A stretch of 64,000 nucleotides of DNA from an uncultured Clostridia bacterium (GTDB taxonomy: Bacteria; Bacillota; Clostridia; Oscillospirales; Oscillospiraceae): NCBI GenBank assembly GCA_946061515.1, contig CAMGRL010000004.1, forward strand, positions 16,505 to 80,504, read 5' to 3'. Of the stretch, positions 46,696 to 64,000 are shown in pieces. Below the pieces are notes generated by a model that saw only the letters and a program-made list of their open reading frames with translations, ran no database searches and was not told the DNA's origin. The translations under genes and the position numbers were made by a program. Within the stretch, counting starts at the first letter, position 1. Each line of letters begins with the position of its first letter.

Positions 46696-47649
46696 TCAAA
46701 GGAACTTGGTGTTTTCCGGCGGGACATATTCGTATTCCGGGAAAAGAACATGCAGAGGCTTGCGGCTGTCCTCCTCAATGGAGTCGTGGACAAAGTTCAG
46801 AAACTCATTGATGAGAGGGGAGGGGAGCAGCTCTTTACTGTGCACAAGCACATATTCCACCTGACGCTCGCTGTTGGTGATGACCTTGGTTGCTAAAAGG
46901 GCGTTGGGCGTGTAGGTGGTCTGGGGGAAGATGCTGATGCCCACGCCACGCTCGCTCAGGGCCACGGCGTCAAGATAGTTGGACATTTCGCAGATGATAT
47001 TCGGCTCCGCGCCGACTTCCCGAAACCATTTATGTATGGCGTCCACCCTGGATTTGCGGCTGGGGACGATCAGCGGCTCACCCACCAGGGAGGAAAGACT
47101 GACCTGTTTTCCCTCGGCCTTGGCCAGGGGATGGCTTGCGGGAATGATGGCGACCCAGGGTTCCCGGCCCACCTGAAAGCCCTCCAGATGCTCCGTGTCG
47201 TAAGGCGCGGCAATGACAGCGATATCCACCAGACCCCGGTAAAGCCGGTCCAGCACGTCGTCGCTGCTGCCGTTCCACAGGCTGAATTGGATCCGGGGAA
47301 ACTCCTCCCGGAAACCGGCGATCCAGCGGGAGACCAAAAAAGGCGCCCGACCTTCCACCATGCCGATGCTGATGGTCCCGGACAGACCGTCCTTCATATC
47401 GGCCAGCTCCTGTTTGGTCTTGTCCGCCAGCTCCAGAATCTGTGTGGCCCGGCGGAGAAGCAGATTGCCCGCTTCGGTGAGCTGAAGGTGCCGTTTGCCC
47501 CGAATCAGCAGGGTGACGCCCAGCTCCTCCTCCAGCGCCTTCAGCTGGTTACTCAGCGGCGGCTGGCTCATGTTCAGTTTTTCGGCGGCCCGGGTAATAT
47601 TCAGCTCCTGGGCCACCACGGTAAAGTACCTTAAACTCCGCAAATCCAT
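46696..47649 (-). CDS. LysR family transcriptional regulator
   Basis: MDLRSLRYFTVVAQELNITRAAEKLNMSQPPLSNQLKALEEELG HTH. Confidence 0.93.
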   Translation of the reverse strand: MDLRSLRYFTVVAQELNITRAAEKLNMSQPPLSNQLKALEEELGVTLLIRGKRHLQLTEAGNLLLRRATQILELADKTKQELADMKDGLSGTISIGMVEGRAPFLVSRWIAGFREEFPRIQFSLWNGSSDDVLDRLYRGLVDIAVIAAPYDTEHLEGFQVGREPWVAIIPASHPLAKAEGKQVSLSSLVGEPLIVPSRKSRVDAIHKWFREVGAEPNIICEMSNYLDAVALSERGVGISIFPQTTYTPNALLATKVITNSERQVEYVLVHSKELLPSPLINEFLNFVHDSIEEDSRKPLHVLFPEYEYVPPENTKFL

Positions 47650-47706
47650 ATATGAAAACCTCAACTTCATATCCAAACGATATGATAGAACTAATGTATT
47701 AAGTAT

Positions 47707-47735
47707 TTAACAATTTCAGAAAAGGGTGCTACACT
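47707..47735 (+). promoter_or_regulatory. sigma-A promoter of the micropeptide operon
   Basis: TTAACA-N17-TACACT, divergent from the LysR gene. Confidence 0.6.
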
Positions 47736-47779
47736 ACAATCGTCCTGAGGGACAAGAAAAAACGAAAGGATGAACAAAA

Positions 47780-47836
47780 ATGAAAAAAGTAGAAAGATTC
47801 TTTGAAGACCTGTACGAGAGCTACCTGCACCGCTGA
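47780..47836 (+). CDS. micropeptide 1 (18 aa, MKKVERFFEDLYESYLHR)
   Basis: GAAAGGA SD-like site; near-identical to the next micro-ORF. Confidence 0.65.
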   Translation: MKKVERFFEDLYESYLHR

Positions 47837-47886
47837 TAAGCAGCCGGGCCGGTTTAGAATGTTAATGAAAGAAAGGATGAAAGATC

Positions 47887-47943
47887 ATGAAAAAAATAGA
47901 GCTTTTCTTTGAAGACCTGTACGAGAGCTATCTGCACCGCTGA
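47887..47943 (+). CDS. micropeptide 2 (18 aa, MKKIELFFEDLYESYLHR)
   Basis: GAAAGGATGAAAGATC upstream; a synonymous Tyr codon change relative to micropeptide 1. Confidence 0.65.
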   Translation: MKKIELFFEDLYESYLHR

Positions 47944-47988
47944 AACTGAGCGGAAAATGAAATCTGAGGAAAGGGGATCTGGACGAAA

Positions 47989-48042
47989 ATGAAGAGAGTT
48001 TCACGTCTTCTCAGAGAATATTATGCAACATTCTCCAGATAA
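47989..48042 (+). CDS. micropeptide 3 (17 aa, MKRVSRLLREYYATFSR)
   Basis: GAGGAAAGGGG SD-like site; aligns without gaps to micropeptides 1 and 2. Confidence 0.55.
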   Translation: MKRVSRLLREYYATFSR

Positions 48043-48068
48043 AATCAATATGAAAGACAATAATTAGA

Positions 48069-48113
48069 GGCACGACCGTCAGATGATATTCTGAATGAGT
48101 CGTGCCTTTTATT
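48069..48113 (+). terminator. terminator of the micropeptide operon
   Basis: GGCACGAC...GTCGTGCC followed by TTTTATT. Confidence 0.75.
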
Positions 48114-50896: not shown

Positions 50897-51170
50897 ATCC
50901 TGTCCCTTGATTTTCAAGGGACAGGAGAAAAAACAATTCCTGCGGTGCCACCCAAGTTGATACTTAAACGTATCCGCCTCTGTCTTGTACCATCATACAA
51001 GTCTGCCCTGATAACGGGAGCAGATCACCCGTTGACTGCTACTCACCAAACGGCTTTCGGTCACCCTCAGAAGTCCATTCACAAACTACCCGAATATCGC
51101 CTTTCAGCAAACGGCGACTCTCTGCAAGACGAATAGAAAGCTACTTACTCTTCATCATCGGTTTTGATTT
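50897..51170 (-). ncRNA. T-box leader (inferred Trp specifier) upstream of trpX
   Basis: GGGTGGCACCGCAGG T-box sequence, CCTGTCCCTTGAAAATCAAGGGACAGG terminator; GAATGGAC specifier region (UGG; + strand 51075-51077). Confidence 0.85.
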
Positions 51171-51444: not shown

Positions 51445-51720
51445 CGTGAAATGCTATGATGAAGACAAGTACCTTGGAAATCCTGTCACAGCGAGCCGGG
51501 GAGGGTGTAAGCCCGGTACAAAGGGGCTGAGGGAATAACACTTCGGAGCAGTGAACCGAAAGGGCCAGCCGAATAGGGGAGACGCGGTGTGCAGCGTTAA
51601 AGTACACGGGTTTGATGGAACTCGAAAAGTGACTGTATTATATATGCAGTAAGTTAGGTGGCACCGCGGATCAGCAGCAATTCGTCCTAAAAGTTTTTAG
51701 GCAATGCTGCAAGTAAATTC
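51445..51720 (+). ncRNA. T-box leader (inferred Asn specifier) upstream of asnB
   Basis: AGGTGGCACCGCGGATCA T-box sequence; GAATAACACTTC specifier region (AAC at 51537-51539). Confidence 0.85.
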
Positions 51721-63102: not shown

Positions 63103-64000
63103 ATGAACACAGTCACAGATGTATTCGGCTCAATGGTTTTCAATGATTCGGTAATGAGGGCGCGTCTGCCCAAGGACGTGTTCAAGCAAGTCCAGCGTTC
63201 CATAAATGAAGGCAAGCGGCTTGACAGCGCGGCGGCCACGGTTGTGGCCAACGCCATGAAGGACTGGGCCATCGAAAAGGGCGCAACCCATTTCACCCAC
63301 TGGTTCCAGCCCATGACCGGCATCACCGCCGAGAAACACGACAGCTTCATCTCTCCCGTGGACGGCGGCAAGGTCATTATGGAGTTTTCCGGCAAGGAAC
63401 TGATCCAGGGCGAGCCTGACGCTTCCAGCTTCCCCTCCGGCGGCCTGCGCGCCACCTTTGAGGCCAGAGGCTACACCGCCTGGGACCCCACCTCCTACGC
63501 CTTTATCAAAGACGGCGTGCTCTGCATCCCCACCGCTTTCTGCTCCTACGGCGGCGAAGCGCTGGACAAAAAGACCCCGCTGCTCCGCTCCATGGAAGCC
63601 ATCAACAAGCAGGGCATGAGAGTGATCCGGCTTTTCGGCAACACTGACGTGACCTCCATCAAGACCACCGTCGGTCCCGAGCAGGAGTACTTTCTTATTG
63701 ATAAAAGCGTATTTGAAAAACGCAAAGACCTGATGTACACCGGCCGCACCCTGTTCGGCGCAAAGCCTCCCAAGGGCCAGGAGCTGGAGGATCACTACTT
63801 CGGCACCATCAAGCCCAGAGTGGCCGCCTTTATGAAGGAGCTGAACGAGGAGCTGTGGAAGCTGGGCGTTCTGGCCAAGACCGAGCACAACGAGGTCGCT
63901 CCCGCACAGCACGAGCTGGCTCCCATCTTCACCACCACCAACATTGCCACCGACCACAACCAGCTGACCATGGAGATCATGCAGAAGGTGGCAAAGAAGC
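63103..64000 (+). CDS. glnN: type III glutamine synthetase, 3'-truncated by the window (not in ORF track)
   Basis: [63 protein letters not shown]; open to the window end. Confidence 0.93.

Follow-up and report, generated by a model that had tools for sequence, protein, structure and literature searches.

A cassette of three tandem micropeptides is encoded in the window (the whole stretch of DNA analysed here, 64,000 nucleotides). Comparison of its sequence among related genomes reveals a peptide family, selection on the peptide itself, linkage to the gene of a LysR-type regulator and a common promoter. The family is undescribed until now and confined to two genera of gut bacteria among those sampled, and its status as a selected peptide family belonging to a LysR-controlled nitrogen regulon is highly probable. 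Its conserved context is glutamine and ammonium metabolism, which was absent from the original prediction made for this DNA.

Organization of the cassette

Three micro-ORFs lie on the plus strand between the divergent LysR gene and an intrinsic terminator, each preceded by a Shine-Dalgarno sequence: micro-ORF 1 at 47780-47836 (MKKVERFFEDLYESYLHR), micro-ORF 2 at 47887-47943 (MKKIELFFEDLYESYLHR) and micro-ORF 3 at 47989-48042 (MKRVSRLLREYYATFSR), with peptide lengths of 17-18 residues. The terminator (48068-48112, plus strand, AGGCACGAC...GTCGTGCCT with a T tail) consists of a hairpin at 48068-48107, paired in the RNA fold, and the T tail that follows; a simple terminator scan misses the hairpin because its loop is too long for the scan. 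An ABC-transporter ATPase gene converges on the cassette 3' of the terminator, and on the far side of the LysR gene follow a GPH-type transporter (MFS_2) and then PIG-L. The three Shine-Dalgarno-preceded micro-ORFs, the terminator, the divergent LysR gene and the convergent next gene were thus all present as originally read, and in the window the cassette forms a transcription unit of its own. Among the 26 ATG-initiated, Shine-Dalgarno-preceded ORFs of 12-25 aa in the window, the cassette is the sole cluster of similar ones. The window genome is an incomplete assembly (81%).

Copies 1 and 2 are identical at 16 of 18 residues. Copy 3 is like copy 1 at just 5 of 17 positions and is recognised by the family profile at 34-35 bits. 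The expected contrast in charge was found, with net charges of 0 and −1 for copies 1 and 2 and +4 for copy 3. An amphipathic helix had been predicted for all three; it is clear in copy 3 and moderate in copy 1, but not significant in copy 2. Since amphipathicity is likewise significant in some members of the family and not in others, the peptides may plausibly form such a helix. The amphipathic helical pattern of several members and the basic copies could also suit membrane-active or toxin-like peptides, either of a type I toxin-antitoxin system or antimicrobial. However, mean hydrophobicity is close to zero or negative and charges run from −1 to +4, neither an antisense RNA nor an antitoxin gene was noticed, and LysR/nitrogen regulation and tandem copies are retained, so that we consider such an activity highly improbable.

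Distribution of the peptide family and selection on the peptides

Members of the family are mostly 15-24 aa long and are arranged in cassettes of one to four ORFs; the N-termini are variable, and a core of roughly E-[YFL]-Y-x-[ST]-[FY] is mostly preserved. With profile A2 the family was detected in 27 of the 102 genomes of the window's genus. A clear gap separated true matches (E up to 3e-4) from noise, and the matches mostly came in groups of two or three at distances of about 100-130 bp; three weak matches with E-values of 0.001-0.012 (G092, G111, G061) fell in genomes already in the count. An improved profile added 14 genomes, out of 64, from a second genus in the same taxonomic family and found no family member in the other sampled genera of the order (396 genomes, 169 genera). 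At the DNA level, a search of the 102 genomes returned five relatives with the same reading frames; a first DNA search of 60 relatives gave just short chance matches beyond the window's own genome and G012. A strict leader pattern, searched across the taxonomic family, matched the window alone and was too strict to show absence. Scanning of GTDB contigs with a pattern yielded 23 contigs; most are records of Oscillospiraceae, Ruminococcaceae or Clostridiales, and many come from ruminant gut. Four representative peptides had no match in Pfam or NCBIfam, the best profile match in the PDB had E = 1.6 and is therefore no relative, and no mention was found in the literature searched for the peptide sequences. 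A phage origin was considered and discarded, there being no phage match.

All three ORFs are kept in G081 and G012, and G119 has four. In G075, three cassettes of two ORFs each lie within 3 kb, away from LysR; these cassettes (L032, C19:192-195 kb) are nearly identical, and two small unrelated genes separate the third from the second. The start is six codons later in one lineage, giving the shortest members, the 15-aa MLKEFYESFSHREGK. Several loci deviate from the common layout. In L175 (G067 C68), beside LysR, a divergent 41-aa ORF (MKKSGISFSEYYRTYSIALGKVESKSGSSKALSEYYKTFQH) that was missed by the profile carries two motif copies (SEYYRTY...SEYYKTF) and is preceded by an unrelated cysteine-bearing micro-ORF (MKKIVLTTVDCKPLLFND). 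In L109/L112 (G162) and L108 (G460), the promoter is the same, and the first cassette ORF encodes another micropeptide, one that contains cysteine (MEQNVLRHVVGAGHGNCQTSQYAR in G162). Promoterless cassette copies in L034 (G063 C33) and L098 (G083 C179) are joined to other coding sequence upstream, with the leader or Shine-Dalgarno sequence read as the C-terminus of the upstream ORF; this arrangement probably reflects recombination or an assembly artefact.

Differences between ORFs pile up at third codon positions, and pN/pS is 0.06-0.28 across seven ORF groups. In a comparison of G000 with G012, identity is 88-94% for the ORFs and 50-67% for the spacers. Judged by these substitution patterns, the peptides are under purifying selection. 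Together with the profile matches in two genera, the pN/pS values bear out the original prediction of a paralogous, selected family; homologous micro-ORFs in related genomes, which had been set beforehand as a test, were found, and the micro-ORFs also passed the second such test, on frameshifting variation.

Promoter, operator and RNA elements

Promoters activated by LysR-type regulators typically have an interrupted palindrome (T-N11-A type) about 50-75 bp upstream of the start and a second site nearer to the −35 region. In one described case, for instance, the lys box spans −74 to −53 (PMC3382589). The cassette promoters have a common LysR-type palindrome, TATCATAY-N7-RTATGRTA. When it was searched freely, up to 75 bp upstream of a GTATTT box in 48 cassette promoters, sites with up to three mismatches were found in 41 of the 48, as opposed to 0.4% of shuffled windows. 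The distance from the palindrome centre to the end of the −10 element is exactly 59 bp in 44 of the 48 and 58 bp in three, and the GTATTT box stands at fixed spacing between the two. In the window, the predicted operator is located at 47665-47687 (CTTCATAT-CCAAACG-ATATGATA), centred at about −66 from the predicted start, the GTATTT box at 47703-47708, a fixed 26 bp from the operator centre, and an extended −10 element (TG-C-TACACT) at 47730-47735, all on the plus strand. By analogy with LysR-type promoters, the GTATTT box is presumed to be the second LysR contact, i.e. the activation site. A palindrome at about −66, a presumed promoter-near second site and an extended −10 without a −35 element make up the geometry of a LysR-activated promoter, from which we infer activation. 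The −35 element TTAACA of the original prediction is not conserved; what is conserved are the operator, the GTATTT box and the extended −10.

A 5′ leader hairpin (GTCC-TGAG-GGAC, 47742-47753, plus strand) is located at the predicted transcript start. In the window's genus its stems change yet still pair, whereas it is weak or absent in the second genus, and a structural role for the cassette RNA is therefore possible, though not general. A conserved 3′ UTR element (ATAATTAG, 48060-48067, plus strand) just before the terminator is also found in the cassettes of G012, G081, G119, G063, G066 and G075. No riboswitch, the glutamine riboswitch included, was detected in the leader with Rfam. Two matches of the leader to viral contigs arose by chance and are without micro-ORFs. 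The conserved leader, with its pairing maintained within the window's genus, and the conserved 3′ element raise the question of whether the transcript, with its 5′ hairpin, repeated Shine-Dalgarno sequences and terminator, is a small RNA or dual-function regulator whose ORFs mainly stabilise it. We consider this quite unlikely given the strong codon-position bias and low pN/pS, the diverged spacers, the lack of an Rfam match and the persistence of the peptide motif in the second genus despite its weak hairpin.

The LysR-type regulator and gene neighbourhoods

The regulator gene (46696-47649, minus strand) encodes 317 aa, is divergent from the cassette and is its proposed activator. Its product has the two domains of LysR-type regulators, PF00126 (HTH_1, 81.5 bits) and PF03466 (LysR_substrate, 137.4 bits). 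GltC (NF053705) was among the best NCBIfam matches; with 153.1 bits against a cut-off of 350, the protein is ruled out as a GltC equivalog. At a threshold of E up to 1e-80, a LysR ortholog is present in 26 of the 27 cassette-bearing genomes and in 19 of the 75 without a cassette (Fisher p = 4e-11, with kinship ignored, and relatedness inflates this statistic). In G000, G081, G012 and G119 the regulator gene is divergent and either adjoins the cassette or lies no more than 5 kb from it; in G004 it is likewise next to the cassette or within that distance, in G061 and G121 it lies downstream on the same strand, and in G032, G033, G069, G085 and G102 it follows asnB near the cassette. In the second genus LysR adjoins the cassette or lies within 5 kb in 10 of 12 new loci, and also in G162, G460 and G429. 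The proposed tie to the LysR gene thereby extends to both genera, and LysR appears, from co-occurrence and promoter layout, to activate the cassette. The GPH transporter and PIG-L deacetylase, also thought to be linked, are conserved neighbours in the closest relatives only, and the suggested transporter-modulating role is not supported.

Cassettes are often found among glnA, amtB, gltB, asnB, glmS and pyrG, with gene identities named for representatives from Pfam and NCBIfam matches. The order is glnA-nadE-amtB, cassette, asnB, LysR, pyrG in G032; glnA, cassette, LysR, pyrG, guaA in G061; and guaA, cassette, glnA, glmS in G004. In G002, gltB-amtB is on the opposite strand and asnB downstream of the cassette. 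An ammonium transporter that carries a P-II domain fused at its C-terminus is divergent from the cassette in G032 (L082:5045-6772) and also in G002. Of 40 cassettes, 21 have LysR or a glutamine gene within 5 kb, and about half are far from any nitrogen gene; these orphan cassettes prove nothing on the target.

Operator sites with up to one mismatch also occur outside cassettes: G075 has them upstream of asnB and glnA-III, G015 between guaA and glnA-III, G012 and G000 upstream of Liv-type ABC substrate-binding genes, and G012 in addition upstream of a further LysR gene. A position matrix trained solely on cassette promoters matched at asnB (G096, G013, G015, G075), glnA-III (G113, G068, G083), guaA (G015) and pyrG (G113, G068), with the same architecture as in cassettes; the scan covered loci flanking LysR, cassettes, operator sites or glnA matches and is a consistency check, not an unbiased genome scan. 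Since operator and promoter geometry common to the cassettes also serve asnB, glnA-III, guaA and pyrG in relatives, a glutamine/nitrogen-status regulator is the best reading of the window LysR. The glnA type III gene of the window genome begins near the window end (about 63104-64000, plus strand) and has no LysR operator upstream, so that the regulon may be narrower there, comprising the cassette, LysR and the Liv-type transporter. T-box leaders in the window precede an ABC substrate-binding protein gene (50914-51167, minus strand) and asnB (51447-51692, plus strand).

In seven genomes (G002, G032, G033, G069, G085, G092, G102) the cassette is immediately upstream of asnB. This would be compatible with nutrient-sensing leader ORFs, whose peptides, rich in aromatic residues (YY..F), would signal charging or stalling of the nascent chain for attenuator-like downstream control. 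In an attenuator, the gene under control follows directly on one and the same transcript; in the window, however, the cassette ends in a terminator followed by a convergent gene, which supports the earlier view of the peptides as the product, and asnB is about 4 kb away with a T-box of its own. As cassettes moreover hold one to four ORFs at varied spacing and synonymous codons are free to vary, we regard a leader function as very unlikely.

Tandem near-identical copies, short basic-hydrophobic N-termini and a variable N-terminus before a conserved C-terminal core would fit exported quorum peptides, of which the conserved C-terminal part is released and sensed outside in a nitrogen-linked group behaviour. 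Yet no signal sequence and no linked exporter or peptide receptor turned up, which also speaks against the secretion or signalling suggested originally. The shortest members (MLKEFYESFSHREGK) are without a basic N-terminus, and the conserved partners are a LysR with a LysR_substrate domain and nitrogen genes. Export thus appears unlikely.

Discussion

We propose that the adjacent LysR-type regulator activates the cassette, which would yield three translated micropeptides of one family. Because the LysR operator and promoter geometry also serve asnB, glnA-III, guaA and pyrG, one to four small soluble peptides would be produced alongside nitrogen-assimilation genes. The peptides would act in trans as short, probably helical modulators binding a nitrogen-assimilation protein. 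By analogy with the archaeal small proteins sP26 and sP36 or the cyanobacterial factor IF7, such modulation is reasonably probable. Candidate partners are GS-III, the AmtB-PII fusion, AsnB and LysR itself, each adjacent somewhere; any one of them is a doubtful choice at best. Targets such as glnA and asnB would suggest that LysR activates under nitrogen limitation. If it does, sP26-like help or glutamine sparing would be a more logical sign of action than inactivation of glutamine synthetase. It is possible, although on balance not probable, that tandem 15-24-residue peptides, LysR-activated together with glutamine genes, directly gate GS-III, the AmtB-PII fusion or a glutamine amidotransferase, with copy number and paralog mixing tuning the response.

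Standard gene callers usually miss peptides of less than 25 aa, and to our knowledge a regulon is known for few bacterial peptide families in this size range. The present family, without database match, arrives with a regulator, an operator, a promoter geometry and a metabolic context, so that its role can be tested directly. In rumen and gut Clostridia, the control of GS-III and of glutamine flux bears on how the microbiota captures ammonia; this control had little coverage in the literature searched.

The regulator resembles the GltC-type LysR proteins of glutamate synthesis in family and in nitrogen targets. In contrast to GltC, the window LysR scores below the cut-off, and its proposed targets include asnB, glnA-III, guaA, pyrG and micropeptides. 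For the peptides, the closest experimental analogue is sP26 of Methanosarcina mazei, which has 23 aa and is reported to interact with the glutamine synthetase GlnA1, with small effects only on the enzyme (PMC11957540). Both are micropeptides of about the same length tied to nitrogen metabolism and glutamine synthetase; sP26, likened here without sequence comparison, differs in being archaeal, not shown to be LysR-controlled and not encoded in tandem cassettes, and binding to glutamine synthetase is proposed there. The 61-aa sP36 of M. mazei binds AmtB1 and GlnK1 (PMC10714827). It is likewise a small protein in nitrogen control, and amtB is divergent beside several cassettes; however, sP36 is archaeal and three times longer, and AmtB binding is a feature of sP36, as against gene adjacency here. 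IF7 and IF17, the glutamine synthetase inactivating factors of cyanobacteria with 65 and 149 aa, are produced when nitrogen is in excess and stand under repression by NtcA, and gifB carries a glutamine riboswitch (PMC7760959). As small proteins under nitrogen control, the amount of which determines enzyme activity, they offer a functional model, but they are longer and controlled by NtcA and a riboswitch, whereas the cassettes have predicted LysR-type control and no Rfam riboswitch. sP26 and IF7 suggest that peptide control of glutamine synthetase is recurring, and a third, unrelated case from Firmicutes would support this recurrence.
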